DNA of 36,403 nucleotides from Candidatus Zambryskiibacteriota bacterium (GTDB taxonomy: Bacteria; Patescibacteriota; Minisyncoccia; Phycocordibacterales; WO2-35-19), in assembly GCA_003233455.1 (NCBI GenBank), contig QILQ01000014.1:1-36403 (forward strand). Direction: 5' to 3'. Of this stretch, positions 2,977 through 11,483 are shown one piece after another (the stretch's first letter is position 1; each line of letters starts with the position of its first letter). Under the pieces are notes generated by a model, which saw nothing but the letters and a program-made list of their open reading frames with translations, did no database searches and was not told the origin of the DNA. Made by a program: the position numbers and the translations under genes.

Positions 2977-3897
2977 CTAAATAGACAAATTATGCAAAGC
3001 TTTGTTTGCCATTTCTATCGCTCCTTCTTTTGTTTTAGTAACAGCAAACCATCCTCCGTTTGTACAAAACTGAGCATCTTTAATACCAGAGACACTTCTT
3101 AGTTCGTCAGTCCTAAGACCCCACCAATTTTTAGGTAGGTTAGCCCTATCTGAATCATATTTTTCTAAATCATCTCTACCAGATTGAATATTCCAATCTT
3201 TACCATTTTTATTTAGATATACTACAAATTTTATATTTTTATTTTTAGAGACTGCTTCATACCACTCTATATTTTTCTCTAAAATTAAAACTTCAGGTTC
3301 ATTTTGTTTTTTTATAGCTTCTAATGTTTCTCTCTCCCCTTCAATAAAGTTCTTAGCCCAAACAATTTCTCTTTTTATTATCTCTTTAGCAAAAAAAATT
3401 ATTTTTTCAAATTGTTTATAAGATAATTTTTTATCTTCTTGTTGAGTGAGATTAAAAATGTCTATCATATCACTAGTTCGATAATCAATAACTCCAAATT
3501 CATTGACTGAAGAAATATTTACCCCATTATCCTTAGCATCAATAGGTATCACGAGATTTTTTTCTATTCTATTTGCAACTTTTTGATCATCACAAACTTT
3601 TGCTCCATATTTTTTCCAAACAAGTCCAAAAGATGCATAAGGAATCCCGTTTTCGTGAGTGCCAGCACCTTTTTTTTGATGATGGTCAAACCTATTTTTG
3701 TCTGGGTCATATTCCATTCCAACATCTACTACTATATCTGCTTTTTTTATAATTTCTTCTTCTCTACTACGGACTATATTTATTTTTTGATCAGTTTTTT
3801 CCGCCCACAGAGAAAATGTAGCACAAGCAAAAATATCATCTGCATGAAAAGTGCCACTATGGGTTACAACTGTAATTTTCTTTTTAAATAGACTCAT
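2977..3897 (-). CDS. MYG1 family protein (UPF0160, DHH-like metal-dependent hydrolase)
   Basis: 306 aa; VVTHSGTFHADDIFACATFSLW, RFDHHQ, GIPYASFGLVWKKYG are MYG1 hallmarks. Confidence 0.9.
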   Translation of the reverse strand: MSLFKKKITVVTHSGTFHADDIFACATFSLWAEKTDQKINIVRSREEEIIKKADIVVDVGMEYDPDKNRFDHHQKKGAGTHENGIPYASFGLVWKKYGAKVCDDQKVANRIEKNLVIPIDAKDNGVNISSVNEFGVIDYRTSDMIDIFNLTQQEDKKLSYKQFEKIIFFAKEIIKREIVWAKNFIEGERETLEAIKKQNEPEVLILEKNIEWYEAVSKNKNIKFVVYLNKNGKDWNIQSGRDDLEKYDSDRANLPKNWWGLRTDELRSVSGIKDAQFCTNGGWFAVTKTKEGAIEMANKALHNLSI

Positions 3898-5876
3898 CTC
3901 GTTAAAAGTTTATCAGTATTATTTTTTAAAGCATTAAAAGAATTCATTTTTTTATCATACTCAATAACAGTACGGACAAATTCAGAATGACTCCAAGTAA
4001 GGGGCACGGCTGATAATGACGCACCAGTATAAGGATTAAGCTGCTCGGAAAGCATACCGGATTTTGCGAATTTTGTCACCCACTCTATATCTTTGACTAC
4101 TTCTTGAAGTTCTGCCACAGAAGTGGCTACCGCTATTTTGTATTGAGTAAACCAAAGAGTGGTAACAAACCACGGGTTGCCAATTGAATTTCCTCCCTCC
4201 ACATAAGAATATCTGTCTCCTTCATAACGAGCAATGCCCCCGATATTGTTGCCTTTTGTTAATCTAGTTTTTAATATTTTAAAAGCTTCTTTCATTCTGG
4301 GGTCATCGGCAGACACCACTCCAAAACGAAATATTCCGTAAAAACTGCTGGCATCTAAATTTATATTTTTTTCTGATTTATCACCGGTTAGTTTGAAAAA
4401 ATATTTTTCATCTTCATTCCAAAGATATGTCATAATGGCCTTGCGTAAAGATTCAGCTTCTGAATAAAATTTACTGACATCATCATCTTTACCTAAAATT
4501 TTAGCAAAATTATGCGCCGCCATAAGACCTCCGTAAACAACCGAAGCGGTAAATGGCGAAATTTCATATTGTTCCTCCCATAAATCATAGCTAGGTAAAG
4601 GTAAACCGGTCTTAACATCTTTATATTGAATCAAAAAATCAGCCGCTTTTTTGATAAAATTATTATAAATACTTTCTATAAATCCAAGATCCTTAGTTCT
4701 TATATAATGTTCCCAAAGACCAACAAGTAAAATAGCCGTCTCATCTTCTTGAATCGCAAGTTGACTCTTACCATCCTTAACCCATGGATGCCAAGAACTG
4801 CCTAAAGAATGGTCCGGTTGATATTTATGCAACACATAACCCTCCTCTGTTAAAATATCATTAGCAAAAATATAAAATCTTTTAGAAATATCATGAAATC
4901 CGGCCAAATCAAAACTCCAAGCAGTAAAACAAGCATCTCTGGGCCAAACATAACCGTAAGTATCTCCCCCGTATTGAATATTGCCGGAATCAGCCGAAGC
5001 TAAAATCCCTCCACGATTGTCGCAATGAGCTCTCATTATCAAAAGCGAATCATAAAATAAATTTTTCGCTTTTTGAGATAGATTCGGGAAAGATAATTCA
5101 ATTTGACCGGTCCAAGCTTGCCAAAAATTTTTAGTTGATTTAAGCAAATGCTCCGGAGATTTTCCAAAAATATATTCACGCAATCCGCATACTTCCCGAT
5201 AAGTCTCACCAACCGCTATCCAATAATATAAAACAATTGAATTATTGGCGGCAATATCTTTTTGCCAACTGACAACCGAATCCACCATACCGTGCTCAAT
5301 GGGATTTTTTGATAAAGCCCCATCTTCAGCGTCTTTCCAAGTGCCTTCCTTCCCTTCAATGCCACAAAAACCGATACTGTAATCGTCAAAAGATTTGCCC
5401 TCACAAACCCCTCCAACTAAAAAAACTCTTCGGCCTTTGTAGTGAACTATGGAATCAATATTATTTGAAAAATAAGCGGTATCAGCGTGATTAGTATCTC
5501 CTATTTTAAATTGTTGATTTAAAAATATTTTTATATTGCGGGTTTTAGAATCTCTATTTGTCAATACTATTTTTCTCAAAAAAATATTTTTTTCATTATA
5601 GACGATATCAGTTGATTCCACCAAAATCTTAGCTTTTTCATTAAAAGCTTCCATATGAGAAACCATAGTGTTTCTTTCAAGCTTTATATCAATCTGCCAC
5701 TCTCCATTATCAATCCATCTGATTTTTCCATCAACAAAAATGCCAATTTTATGTTTCTGATTTACACCTATATGATTTTCTTGTCCGACATAAGGAAAAT
5801 AAAAATCCCTCATCTGTCCGAACTTATCAAGACAGATTGATGTATTGCCATTTCCTAAAACCATTGAGCGAGCCAT
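3894..5876 (-). CDS. Glycoside hydrolase family 15-like protein (glucoamylase/trehalase-like)
   Basis: 660 aa; GGDTYGYVWPRDACFTAWSFDLAG, PLPSYDLWEEQYEISPFTASVVYGGL are GH15 motifs. Confidence 0.9.
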   Translation of the reverse strand: MARSMVLGNGNTSICLDKFGQMRDFYFPYVGQENHIGVNQKHKIGIFVDGKIRWIDNGEWQIDIKLERNTMVSHMEAFNEKAKILVESTDIVYNEKNIFLRKIVLTNRDSKTRNIKIFLNQQFKIGDTNHADTAYFSNNIDSIVHYKGRRVFLVGGVCEGKSFDDYSIGFCGIEGKEGTWKDAEDGALSKNPIEHGMVDSVVSWQKDIAANNSIVLYYWIAVGETYREVCGLREYIFGKSPEHLLKSTKNFWQAWTGQIELSFPNLSQKAKNLFYDSLLIMRAHCDNRGGILASADSGNIQYGGDTYGYVWPRDACFTAWSFDLAGFHDISKRFYIFANDILTEEGYVLHKYQPDHSLGSSWHPWVKDGKSQLAIQEDETAILLVGLWEHYIRTKDLGFIESIYNNFIKKAADFLIQYKDVKTGLPLPSYDLWEEQYEISPFTASVVYGGLMAAHNFAKILGKDDDVSKFYSEAESLRKAIMTYLWNEDEKYFFKLTGDKSEKNINLDASSFYGIFRFGVVSADDPRMKEAFKILKTRLTKGNNIGGIARYEGDRYSYVEGGNSIGNPWFVTTLWFTQYKIAVATSVAELQEVVKDIEWVTKFAKSGMLSEQLNPYTGASLSAVPLTWSHSEFVRTVIEYDKKMNSFNALKNNTDKLLTR

Positions 5877-6128: not shown

Positions 6129-6764
6129 TTATATACCCTTCTTTATTTTAACCTTTAAGTTATTAATATTCAAAAAATCAACTGGATTACCTTTTTCCTG
6201 AGTTAAATTTCTTAATTTTGTTGAAAACCTAGAAGTAGAATAACGAGGACCGCTTTTTATTCTTTTAGCACTAGATACTATATGAGCAATAGTGCCTTTC
6301 TTTACAACCTTCTTAATTAAATACTCGAAATCGCCGTCACCCGTGAAAATATAAAACTCGGTATTTTCACCAGAATATTCCATAGCATCAACAGTTAAAT
6401 CCACATCACAATTTGATTTTCTATTGTAACCCATATCAACAATTTCATTAAATTTATAGTCACATTTAGGACACTTTATTTTTATATTTTTATTTCTATT
6501 TTTGTATGAAAAAACTACTTTTGACCTAACTACACCGCCACCTTCAATCAATAATTCAAATTCTTTCTGGGTTTCTAAATCGCCAGCATCTATTCCTGTG
6601 TAAAAAAATACCTTCTCACATTTCCAATCATCTTTAAGAAATTTATATAATTTCATCCAATCCACTAAAAATCCTAAAACTCTGCGAGTAGTAGTTTCAG
6701 TATTTTGCACATCTATAAAAGCAAATCTCCTTTTGTTGTTCATTGATATTAATTTACACTTCAC
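6129..6764 (-). CDS. NYN (PIN-like, LabA/DUF88) domain protein, putative RNase
   Basis: 211 aa; FAFIDVQN, KSNCDVDLTVDAM, FTGDGDFEYLIKKV match NYN acidic motifs; CPKC inside. Likely start at the internal MNNKRRF. Confidence 0.8.
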   Translation of the reverse strand: MKCKLISMNNKRRFAFIDVQNTETTTRRVLGFLVDWMKLYKFLKDDWKCEKVFFYTGIDAGDLETQKEFELLIEGGGVVRSKVVFSYKNRNKNIKIKCPKCDYKFNEIVDMGYNRKSNCDVDLTVDAMEYSGENTEFYIFTGDGDFEYLIKKVVKKGTIAHIVSSAKRIKSGPRYSTSRFSTKLRNLTQEKGNPVDFLNINNLKVKIKKGI

Positions 6765-8013
6765 TAAACCTCAACGGTCGCATTTTATGGAGAGAAATAT
6801 TATGTTCCTGTTTTTTCTTAGCCACCTCCAAACGCAAACGCATATCTTGCATCACATTCATATAAGCAATAAAAGCTTCATACGGAGATTCATACGGAGA
6901 GAAATATTTATGAACATCGCCATCATTCCAAAATTTAGTGCACATATAATAGAAATGGTCGGAAGTTTGCAGTCTTCGCCAATCTTCTATAAGTTTCTGG
7001 TCATCAATATGAATTATTTCTTTACCTAAAGCGTAAAGAGTGTTTAAGGCTTCCTTTTGAAGGTCATTGCCAGTCCAAGCGGACAAATCCCTTTCTATAT
7101 CGGCCCAAGAAACATAATAAGGAACATCTAACTCCCCCTTTGTCTCATAACGATCTATAATTTCAGATGGAGTGGCAAAATTATTATCTGGATTTTTTAA
7201 AATTTCTTCTGGTAAATAATGTAAAAATTCAAATATGCCGGTGTCTTCCCATTGGTGTTCCCCGAAAGTTTCGTAATCCATAAAAAGATTTATGGTATCG
7301 CCATTGCCATTGTGAGAAGAAACCCAATCAGCAAATTTTGGTGCTGTCAGTGGCCAACTTTTCCAACTTTGTTGAGAAAACCTAAAAGCGATATCATCAG
7401 AAAGACGATAATGTTTCAACAGCAATTTTATATTTTCAACGCCTGCCGGTTTATAAACGAAAGCCGGACTTCGCCAACCTAAAATATGGTCGGCTCCCTC
7501 GGCTAAAATACCTTTGTAACCCATTTTTCCCGCCATCTTCGCTATTTCATTTGAGTAGATAAGTTCGGTATTACGAAAAACCGAAGGAGTAACCCCAAAA
7601 ATATCTTGAATTTTTTTACGATGAAGATTAACTTGATTAACAAATTCTTCTTCAGAATAAATAGAAGCTAAAGAATGATAATAAGTTTCTGAAAGAAGTT
7701 CCACGTTGCCGGTATTCATTAAATTTTTAAAAGACTCAATCACTTCCGGCGCGTATTTTTCAAATTGTTCCAAAGCAACACCAGAAATGGAAAAACTGAC
7801 TTTAAATTCCGGATTATTTTTTATATTTTCAAGCAGGGTGGCATTGGCGGGCAGATAACATTTACCGGCCACTTTCTCAATAATCGCTTTATTGTCCAAA
7901 CTGGTGCCACTTTCATCATTGAAGTAAGAACTATTTTGACCAACATCAAAAATTCGGTACTTGCGCACCCTTAAAGGTTGATGAACTTGGAAGTAAAAAC
8001 ATACTGAAGTCAT
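6754..8013 (-). CDS. Glycoside hydrolase family 57 (alpha-amylase-type)
   Basis: 419 aa; CFYFQVHQPLRVRKYRIFDVG N-terminus, FRNTELIYSNEIAKMAGKMGYKGILAEGAD, FMDYETFGEHQW. Confidence 0.93.
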   Translation of the reverse strand: MTSVCFYFQVHQPLRVRKYRIFDVGQNSSYFNDESGTSLDNKAIIEKVAGKCYLPANATLLENIKNNPEFKVSFSISGVALEQFEKYAPEVIESFKNLMNTGNVELLSETYYHSLASIYSEEEFVNQVNLHRKKIQDIFGVTPSVFRNTELIYSNEIAKMAGKMGYKGILAEGADHILGWRSPAFVYKPAGVENIKLLLKHYRLSDDIAFRFSQQSWKSWPLTAPKFADWVSSHNGNGDTINLFMDYETFGEHQWEDTGIFEFLHYLPEEILKNPDNNFATPSEIIDRYETKGELDVPYYVSWADIERDLSAWTGNDLQKEALNTLYALGKEIIHIDDQKLIEDWRRLQTSDHFYYMCTKFWNDGDVHKYFSPYESPYEAFIAYMNVMQDMRLRLEVAKKKQEHNISLHKMRPLRFSEV

Positions 8014-8035
8014 TGTCTAATGAATTATATAACGA
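7944..8035. repeat. Copy 1 of a 92-bp perfect direct repeat flanking the RM module
   Basis: catcaaaaattcggtacttgcgcacccttaaaggttgatgaac...tgaattatataacga, identical to 10189-10280. Confidence 0.97.
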
Positions 8036-8056
8036 AAGATTGCGCAGTATAAATTT

Positions 8057-9153
8057 GTGTATAGATTAAAACTTGAAAAATTTTTACAAAGATGCATAGT
8101 TATTGATATGAAATACAAACTTAAAAAAGAAGATTTTGAAAGAACTTTTAAATTTGGTGTTGAATACCATCTGGATCCCAGAAAATCTAGCTCTACTAGA
8201 ACAGCGGGATCAGCGAGGGGGCTTGGTGGTGTATTAGATAGTTTTATGCACGGGAAATTAGTAGAAACAGGCGTTATACAAATTATTAATGATCTTAATT
8301 TAAATAAAATTCTTTTAGCTGATTTTGACATAAAAGGAACTAACGAGGCAAAAGATGACCCCGATATAGTAAAAATTATAGAAAAGAAAAATGAGAGATT
8401 GCCAAAAATTTATGTAGAAATTAAAAACATATCTCAAGACGATCGCTACATTGGTCTTACGTATGAACAATTTAACACAGCTAAAAAGACAAGCAATAAT
8501 AGGGATATTTTTATTGTTGGTGCTCATCTGGAAAATTCATCAAAAAACTCCAGTAAAAAAATAAACGATGCACTTGGGGTTTATTTAAAAAAAAAATAAA
8601 AGATATATCTCTAGAAAATTTCGCAAATATAGGAGAAATAGAAGTTGTAATTGATTATGCAATATCAGGGAAAGAACTTGAAAGTAACGGTCTAAAATTT
8701 TCAAAAGGAGGTTTATTTTACGAAACCGAATTATTTATCGATTCTGGACCACAAGCAAAAAAATTAATAACTACTGGACTATTTAAAAAAATTTCATCAG
8801 GAGAAAATATAGAGATAGAACCATATATACAAAATCCAATGTATAAAATTCCAAAATTTATTAAACCTTTAAAAGCACAAGGAAAAATTGAAATATATGA
8901 AAAGAAAAATAATAAAAGTTTAAGAAGATATATAAAATGTAATTCTGATGTTGAGATAGAAGACAACAACCTTGGAATATTTAAACTTCAAAAAGGTAAA
9001 ATATATCTATTTAATATGACTACAGTTGGAAGAAATCCAGTATTAGCTAGAAATAATATTTGGATAGCAAAAAGAAACCTTTTTTACTTACAAAAGAAAA
9101 ACAAGATAAAATCGACAGAAGAAAACTTAAGAATTATTGCTAACAGTATCTAA
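8057..9153 (+). CDS. Putative type II restriction endonuclease, split by a frameshift at an A10 tract
   Basis: ORF 8057-8599 (likely start ATG 8108) has a PD-(D/E)XK-like DDPDIV...IYVEIKN. The open frame resumes at 8587-8596 and runs to 9153 with no stop; convergent with the adjacent C5 methyltransferase. Confidence 0.7.
8587..8596 (+). other. A10 homopolymer at the frame transition of the endonuclease gene
   Basis: ttattt AAAAAAAAAA taaaag; frame 2 stops at TAA 8597-8599, frame 1 continues as LFKKKIKDISLENFANIGEIEVV. Confidence 0.95.
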
Positions 9154-10161
9154 TAAACCTAATTTCATATTTATAGAATGTAAAGGTTTACCATCTATAG
9201 CATTAATTATATTTTTAGCAATCCTTTCTATAACAGATATTGTTACAGAATTTCCTATCTGTTTATATAATTTTGAATCAACTAAATCATTGGGTAATTT
9301 TATATCTTTAAATCCTTGAATTCTTGCACACTCTAAAGGAGTTAATTTTCTTATACCCTCAAAATCTCTAACCAGAGGTACATTGTGACCACCAGTACCC
9401 ATATTCGCAGTTAATGTTGGACATACCCCTTTTTTATTTGCTCTTACATATTGTCTTCTCCATTGATACACAGTGTCGTAAGTAAAAGTATAATCTTTTA
9501 TTTTTTCAAAAAGAGGCTTATTTTTATAATAATACTTTTCATCAATCTTATTTTCAGGTTCAAGTAATTTTCTAAAGTTAACATTAAGCTTAATTGGATC
9601 TGGAAATTTAAAACTATCTATATGTTTTCTTGACTTAAACCCGACTATATATATTCTTTCCCTATTCTGTGGAACATTACCATAATTCATACTATTTAAT
9701 ATTTTTGCGTCAATATAATAACCAAGATTTCTTAATGTTTCTAAAATAATTCTAAAAGTATTACCATTATCATGACTTTCAAGATTTTTTACATTTTCTA
9801 ACAAAAAACCCATTGGTTTATTTTTTTCTATAATTTCTGCAACCTTAAAAAATAAATTTCCTCTACCTTTTTTGTCTTTAAAACCTTGTCTATGTCCTGC
9901 AATCGAAAACGCTTGACACGGGAAACCTCCTAAAAGAAAATCGAAGTTTGGTAATTTTTTTATATTTACTTTATTTATGTCTTCAATATGAAGTTTTGTA
10001 CCACTAAAATTCTTATCATAAGTTAATTTACACGAAGGTTCAAAGTCATTTGCATAAACAGTTTCAAACCTACCAGTACTCTCAAAACCTTTTCTTATAC
10101 CACCTATTCCAGCAAATAAATCTATTGTTCTTATTTTTTTCATAAGTTTATTATATATCAT
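9127..10161 (-). CDS. DNA (cytosine-5-)-methyltransferase
   Basis: 344 aa; IDLFAGIGGIRKGFE, GGFPCQAFSIAG, GFLLENVKNL, NYGNVPQNRERIYIVGF, QIGNSV: canonical C5-MTase motifs. Confidence 0.97.
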   Translation of the reverse strand: MIYNKLMKKIRTIDLFAGIGGIRKGFESTGRFETVYANDFEPSCKLTYDKNFSGTKLHIEDINKVNIKKLPNFDFLLGGFPCQAFSIAGHRQGFKDKKGRGNLFFKVAEIIEKNKPMGFLLENVKNLESHDNGNTFRIILETLRNLGYYIDAKILNSMNYGNVPQNRERIYIVGFKSRKHIDSFKFPDPIKLNVNFRKLLEPENKIDEKYYYKNKPLFEKIKDYTFTYDTVYQWRRQYVRANKKGVCPTLTANMGTGGHNVPLVRDFEGIRKLTPLECARIQGFKDIKLPNDLVDSKLYKQIGNSVTISVIERIAKNIINAIDGKPLHSINMKLGLLDTVSNNS

Positions 10162-10188
10162 TTTTAGATACTTTCAGAAGTTTAATTT

Positions 10189-10280
10189 CATCAAAAATTC
10201 GGTACTTGCGCACCCTTAAAGGTTGATGAACTTGGAAGTAAAAACATACTGAAGTCATTGTCTAATGAATTATATAACGA
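10189..10280. repeat. Copy 2 of the 92-bp perfect direct repeat flanking the RM module
   Basis: Identical to 7944-8035; similarity resumes after an 8-nt gap (aagattgcgc at 8036-8045 and 10289-10298). Confidence 0.97.
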
Positions 10281-11483
10281 CGAAATCAAAGATTGCGCCG
10301 CCTTTTTCCAGTGGATTGTTTTCACTTCTTCCCGACCGCCAACCGAAAGATAATTTTTGAGTTTTTTGTGACACAAGACACTGATAACTTTATCAGCCAT
10401 ATCATCAATATCCCAAAAGTGAGATTTTAAAGCAGTGGAAAGAATTTCGCTTACTCCGGATTCTTTGGAAACTAAAACCGGCACTTCGGAAATCATAGCT
10501 TCCAGTGGCACCAAACCGAAAGGTTCCGAAACGCTAGGCATCACAAACATATCAGCAGCCTTATAAACTTGAGCTAATTCTTCGCCTCTCAAAAATCCGC
10601 AGAAAATAAATTTATTGGACAGACCGCGACGAGCGACAACCCTTATCATCTCTCCTTCCATATCGCCACTGCCAGACACGACAAAAAAAGTATTAGGTTG
10701 ACGCGAAAGCACTTTCTCCGCCATAGAGATAAAATAATCTGGACCTTTTTGTAAGGTGATACGACCAACAAACAAAACAATTTTGTTGCCGGATTTTTTT
10801 AACGCCTCTAAGTTGTGTTCAATAGTGGCGGAATTATTATTAAATTCAATCCCGTTGTAAACTACTTTTACTTTCGCCACCGGAATATTATATTTATTAA
10901 CTATTTTATTTTTAGTATGTTTAGAGACCGCCACAATAGCATCTGCTTGACGAAAACCTTCAAGCTCAATATTATAAATATCTTTATTCACTCTGTCACT
11001 GCCACTTCTGTCAAATTCAGTAGCGTGAACATGGACAATCAACGGCTTGCCAGACACTTCTTTAGCGGCAATGCCGGCTGGATAAGTAAGCCAATCATGT
11101 GCGTGGATAATAGAGTGTTTGTTTTTTTGAGCGATAACACCCGCTCTTAAAGCATAAGCTTTTACTCTTTCAATTAGATTTCCCGATATAGATTTCGGCA
11201 AGCCGTATTTTTTCACTTCAATGGAAGTGGAATGACTTTGATAACCGGCAAATAAACTTAACATTTGAACATCGCTTATCAAATCGGTATTTTCATTGGC
11301 AAAAACAAACTTGCACCAAGAAGCCGAAATTGGAATTTTAAAAGGCAAAACAAAAGTCAAGTCAACTCCACTTGAAGTCAGAGCTTTAGAAAGACCTTGA
11401 CAAGCAACCCCAAGACCGCCACTATTGAATGGCGGAAATTCCCATCCGAACATCAGAATACTTGGTGATTTTAAGTTTGCCAT
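10191..11483 (-). CDS. Glycosyltransferase, glycogen/starch-synthase-like (GT4/GT5 type)
   Basis: 430 aa; SPSILMFGWEFPPFNSGGLGVACQGLSKAL, IIHAHDWLTYPAGI, FVGRITLQKGPDYF, MPSVSEPFGLVPLEAM. Confidence 0.9.
   Translation of the reverse strand: MANLKSPSILMFGWEFPPFNSGGLGVACQGLSKALTSSGVDLTFVLPFKIPISASWCKFVFANENTDLISDVQMLSLFAGYQSHSTSIEVKKYGLPKSISGNLIERVKAYALRAGVIAQKNKHSIIHAHDWLTYPAGIAAKEVSGKPLIVHVHATEFDRSGSDRVNKDIYNIELEGFRQADAIVAVSKHTKNKIVNKYNIPVAKVKVVYNGIEFNNNSATIEHNLEALKKSGNKIVLFVGRITLQKGPDYFISMAEKVLSRQPNTFFVVSGSGDMEGEMIRVVARRGLSNKFIFCGFLRGEELAQVYKAADMFVMPSVSEPFGLVPLEAMISEVPVLVSKESGVSEILSTALKSHFWDIDDMADKVISVLCHKKLKNYLSVGGREEVKTIHWKKAAQSLISSLYNSLDNDFSMFLLPSSSTFKGAQVPNF

Follow-up and report, generated by a model that had tools for sequence, protein, structure and literature searches.

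The window, the whole 36,403-bp stretch of DNA that was analysed, comes from a single assembly, a 736-kb draft in 52 contigs. It includes host genes for a GH57-family glycoside hydrolase (GH57) and a glycosyltransferase (GT) that are separated by a restriction-modification (RM) gene pair, with one copy of a direct repeat on either side of the pair (Table 1). Orthologues of both host genes were found in six congeners, with identities of 77–87 % for GH57 and 63–79 % for the GT. The GT is weakly glycogen-synthase-like, scoring under the NCBIfam cut-offs, and its relatives with names include those of Yonathbacteria, Nomurabacteria, Kaiserbacteria and other Parcubacteria, which places the host most likely within the CPR/Patescibacteria. 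Together with a GH15-like gene located downstream of GH57, the two genes look like a small putative carbohydrate operon on the minus strand.

Table 1. Coordinates of the genes and features at the GT/GH57 locus (numbering of the window)
Feature	Position	Strand	Details
GH15-like gene, downstream of GH57	3894–5876	-	
GH57-family glycoside hydrolase gene, host	6754–8013	-	PF03065, E 7.3e-80
Repeat copy 1	7944–8045		102 bp; 5' part of GH57 and dead 3' fragment of GT
Unique inserted segment	8046–10188		2143 bp, counted without the 10-bp resumed homology
Endonuclease-like gene, N-terminal part	8108–8599	+	163 aa; stop just past A10 tract
A10 tract, frame break of endonuclease-like gene	8587–8596	+	
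Endonuclease-like gene, C-terminal part	~8588–9153	+	open in next frame (-1); stop 9151–9153
C5 cytosine DNA methyltransferase gene	9127–10161	-	344 aa; PF00145 8.1e-85; TIGR00675 1.4e-95; PADLOC MTase_II 9.6e-118
Vestigial GH57 start in copy 2	10151–10258	-	35-codon ORF running from copy 2 into insert
Repeat copy 2	10189–10298		110 bp; 3' end of GT and dead 5' fragment of GH57
Glycosyltransferase (GT) family 4/5-like gene, host	10191–11483	-	PF00534, 9.2e-32
GCCGC site	10297–10301		outer duplication edge 10298/10299 falls at GC^CGC

The repeat comprises 92 bp that are 100 % identical between positions 7944–8035 and 10189–10280, and a search of the whole assembly found this sequence in exactly these two places. 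Beyond eight extra bases present in the right copy only, homology picks up again for a further 10 bp (8036–8045 and 10289–10298), so the two copies are of unequal length (Table 1). The runner-up among direct repeats in the window was 47 bp at 85 % identity, and an exact repeat of 92 bp with its copies 2.2 kb apart cannot have arisen by chance. The insert abuts both copies without any additional host sequence. With a G+C content of 26.8 %, compared with 36–39 % in the two flanking genes and a window median of 32 %, it is the lowest-G+C stretch of its own size within the window. No transposase was found among the ORFs of the insert, and the ORF list contained no substantial genes in 8046–10188 other than the methyltransferase and endonuclease-like genes. 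The insert also has no terminal inverted repeats, as the best end-to-end inverted match (9.0) was no better than the mean for shuffled sequence (9.3), ruling out a transposon of that type.

The GH57 start codon and the first 70 bp of the gene sit within copy 1, and the GT stop codon (10191–10193) lies within copy 2, 2 bp from its edge. Given that the GH57 start (8011–8013) corresponds to bases 10256–10258 of copy 2, an ancestor with a single copy would have had a 68-bp out-of-frame overlap of the two genes. The duplicated segment takes in this entire overlap and extends 2 bp beyond the GT stop codon on one side and 40 bp upstream of the start of GH57 on the other. An initial annotation of the sequence had recorded the 92-bp identity and the resumed 10-bp homology, had arrived at the 68-bp overlap by removing one repeat, and had noted that each gene has its own intact copy (copy 2 completing the GT and copy 1 completing GH57) and that the duplication coincides with the overlap; all of this holds to the base. 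Its unique interval of 2153 bp (8036–10188) did correctly capture the insert, with the strictly unique part starting 10 bp later. It had also correctly listed an endonuclease-like gene and a C5 methyltransferase gene as the only cargo and had overlooked a frame break in the former.

The vestigial GH57 ORF in copy 2 stops 7 bases ahead of an ATG within the methyltransferase gene (10143), and through this ORF the methyltransferase might now benefit from the translational coupling that used to link GT and GH57. A promoter-like site for GH57 spanning the junction of the insert and copy 1 (8053–8024) was discarded as equally frequent in shuffled sequence.

The methyltransferase scored above the curated cut-offs of the PF00145 and TIGR00675 families. 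Its best plasmid relatives were 50–54 % identical, and some of these adjoin genes for Bsp6I-type or NgoFVII-type endonucleases, while the methyltransferase of genome G051, which is 68 % identical, adjoins a gene with an NgoFVII C-terminal domain. Nearly all of these relatives have the variable-region block YQWRRxYVRxNKxxxxPTLTANMGTGGHNVP in common. Enzymes of the Bsp6I type recognise GCNGC and those of the NgoFVII type GCSGC. The neighbouring endonucleases of the relatives and the common block thus point to a GCNGC/GCSGC-like specificity, and the methyltransferase is predicted to belong to this group. Although it resembles the methyltransferases of Bsp6I/NgoFVII-type RM systems (51–68 % identity and the same variable-region block), the Pfam models of Bsp6I and NgoFVII both failed to match the partner endonuclease here. 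The G051 methyltransferase, the closest in the order, appeared by eye to be fused to a LexA-like N-terminal part (L139:2692–8859, G051:C8), and its cluster also includes a Vsr endonuclease, the NgoFVII-type gene and a large AAA ATPase. A second C5 methyltransferase in the genome under study (L146:3659–4618, G000:C11), 39 % identical to the first, lies beside LexA-like reading frames, and no flanking duplication was found there.

The endonuclease-like gene is convergent with the methyltransferase gene and its last 27 bp overlap the latter tail to tail. A PD...EIK motif in the N-terminal part (DDPDIV...YVEIKN) fits the PD-(D/E)XK pattern by eye, and it is on this motif and the position of the gene that we call it endonuclease-like. 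It had no family match in Pfam, NCBIfam or PDB, and no relatives were found in 380 other Patescibacteria genomes, plasmids or phages. The predicted structures of the two parts, with mean pLDDT of 33 and 43, were too poor to use. The frame break at the A10 tract could represent phase variation, rescue by slippage, decay or an assembly error. In Mycoplasma agalactiae, which has a Bsp6I-type enzyme, a poly(A) frame break has been reported in hsdR, encoding an RM endonuclease subunit (PMC9465063). Both cases combine an endonuclease frame broken at poly(A) with an intact methyltransferase, but here the tract length is that of one assembly, rather than a length varying from cell to cell. Should slippage or strain variation restore the frame, the two genes would probably function as a normal RM system with GCNGC-like methylation; as assembled, the pair may provide methylation alone.

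Seven other genomes of the genus were examined, and the GT and GH57 genes are adjacent in six. The comparison covers these six; in the remaining genome (G007), the search recovered no GH57, and a contig end cuts the GT match short. Four of the six (G001, G002, G004 and G006) carry a single copy of the segment, with the GT stop exactly 68 bp inside GH57, and have no RM genes at this site. This is the empty site that had been predicted for relatives lacking the RM genes, and in no congener were RM genes seen in place without the duplication. A close methyltransferase was not found in the congeners, where the best matches were 33–39 % identical and at other loci. The nearest congeners belong to other species, with 82 % protein identity across GT and GH57, and it is at this distance that the empty sites are known.

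In G003, the earliest branch, the two genes do not overlap and are 6 bp apart. G005 has lost the overlap and has a 145-bp gap that contains a palindromic repeat, as well as a different GT tail. With its GT tail changed and its overlap gone, it may exemplify the opposite outcome to that in the window, namely what happens when an overlap is hit without being duplicated. The palindromic repeat in this gap (L140:11215–11416, G005:C36), AAAGTGTCAAAGGGCGCCTTTGACACTT, recurs near 6999 in the same contig, and the GH57 start codon there is GTG. In a tree built from GT and GH57, with some weak nodes (45–74 %), both the window and G005 fell within the group of genomes that have the overlap, so the overlap is most likely the ancestral state around these two and most likely predates the insertion. 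In relatives further away, GT and GH57 are separated by gaps or overlap by no more than 4 bp, and the long overlap is therefore particular to the genus.

No substitutions were found between copy 1 and copy 2 in 102 aligned bases, whereas the same stretch differs at many positions in the congeners, so the duplication event was recent on the species scale. The 8-base difference in length had been taken as a loss of 8 bp from copy 1. The difference itself stands. However, three of the eight extra bases are missing in all five of the congeners that align here (G001, G002, G003, G004 and G006), so copy 2 has likely gained 3 bp in frame and copy 1 has likely lost 5 bp. Two indels, one frame-breaking in copy 1 and one in-frame in copy 2, are thus the more likely account. 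The ancestral sequence probably read TTTGATTTCGTTATATAAT, with CGT added to copy 2 by slippage and 5 bp lost from copy 1 between two TTT runs. Alternatively, the 3 bp may have been gained before the duplication and 8 bp then lost from copy 1, which takes the same number of events (two) but calls for an 8-bp deletion nearly without microhomology. Under either route, the change was in frame in the GT-coding copy and out of frame in the non-coding part of copy 1.

We consider it very likely that a horizontally acquired Type II RM pair was inserted into the 68-bp GT/GH57 overlap with a target duplication of about 110 bp. The pair would have arrived by horizontal transfer and entered without a transposase, via the repair of a long-staggered break or via a one-sided homologous or illegitimate join of foreign DNA, with about 110 bp of the target, overlap included, being copied in the process. 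Since copy 2 completes the GT and copy 1 GH57, both proteins are left intact, and from the insertion onwards both copies would have been released from double coding. At any point of the 68 bp, an insertion free of duplication would cut the GT short or part GH57 from its start. Purifying selection would remove such insertions, and this could explain why duplication and overlap coincide; selection alone can account for the coincidence and targeting is unnecessary. The genome encodes ComEC and DprA, making DNA uptake plausible, and uptake followed by one-sided homologous joining is a possible insertion route.

A more specific origin for the break is suggested by the outer edge of the duplication, which falls at GC^CGC. 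This is the cut position predicted for the GCNGC enzyme group, to which the system is assigned from its relatives. Such positions make up 0.19 % of the bonds in the window, and a chance match at one of the two edges has a probability of about 0.4 % in what was a post hoc test. With a predicted specificity and a test of this kind, the GC^CGC edge is a lead only. It seems unlikely that the nuclease of the RM system, or another enzyme sharing its specificity, made the initial cut there, with the insertion beginning at a restriction break and becoming fixed because both genes were spared. Integration of the Campbell type, in which an RM circle carrying one copy of the GT/GH57 junction is excised from an occupied genome and recombines into a single-copy site, would account for the identical copies and the absent transposase, and direct repeats permit such an excision. 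However, the first insertion would still have to be explained, and a donor of another species should have given diverged copies rather than 92 identical bp, making this quite improbable.

The order of events could also have been reversed, with the 110-bp segment first doubled in tandem and the RM pair inserted between the copies later. The end product would be identical, and insert edges that abut the copies fit either order, but two events are required, with the insertion falling exactly at the copy boundary, and no congener has a tandem duplication at the GT/GH57 site, so we regard it as very unlikely. That the assembler made the second copy is scarcely credible, despite this being a single draft in 52 contigs: the copies are unequal (102 and 110 bp) and each has unique flanks, a single copy would leave one gene truncated by the RM insert, and the congeners show precisely the site that a real insertion predicts.

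Earlier work describes some RM systems as inserting with long, variable target duplications of about 100 bp (PMC3874152) and RM insertion with long target duplication in genome comparisons (PMC3031569, PMC1643837). For such insertions in Helicobacter, a parallel that the initial annotation had also drawn, these papers cite Nobusato et al. 2000 and Furuta et al. 2010. The present case fits this pattern, sharing with the Helicobacter insertions a cargo of RM genes only, an empty site in relatives, a flanking duplication of about 100 bp and the lack of a transposase. It differs in its Patescibacteria (CPR) host and may also differ in its target, a gene overlap fully covered by the duplication. 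Both the host lineage and the position make the placement less usual, since at an overlap both genes stay whole only if the insertion duplicates its target.

A screen for flanking duplications at 34 other Patescibacteria loci that encode a related C5 methyltransferase found a long near-identical pair at none of them, ruling out that this methyltransferase family habitually lies between long duplications. Diverged flanking repeats were present at three of the 34 loci, namely L181 and L202 (three-copy repeats) and L192 (about 50 bp, 86 % identity). The direct repeats at L192 (L192:5214–7694, G374:C1) enclose a convergent RM pair, with an endonuclease-like gene on the plus strand and a C5 methyltransferase gene on the minus strand that overlap by 56 bp at their tails. 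This locus may be an insertion of greater age that likewise duplicated its target.

RM genes are regarded as mobile selfish units, and it is mainly by comparing Helicobacter strains that their insertion with long target duplications has become known. The finding reported here is real, and the explanation put forward in the initial annotation is supported with small corrections. It provides a clean and recent example in a reduced-genome CPR lineage, with the empty sites placed on a phylogeny, and offers a simple reason for the persistence of such duplications, namely that they allow insertion inside a gene overlap while both genes survive. In this way, a duplicating insertion separates two genes that were formerly locked together by their overlap.
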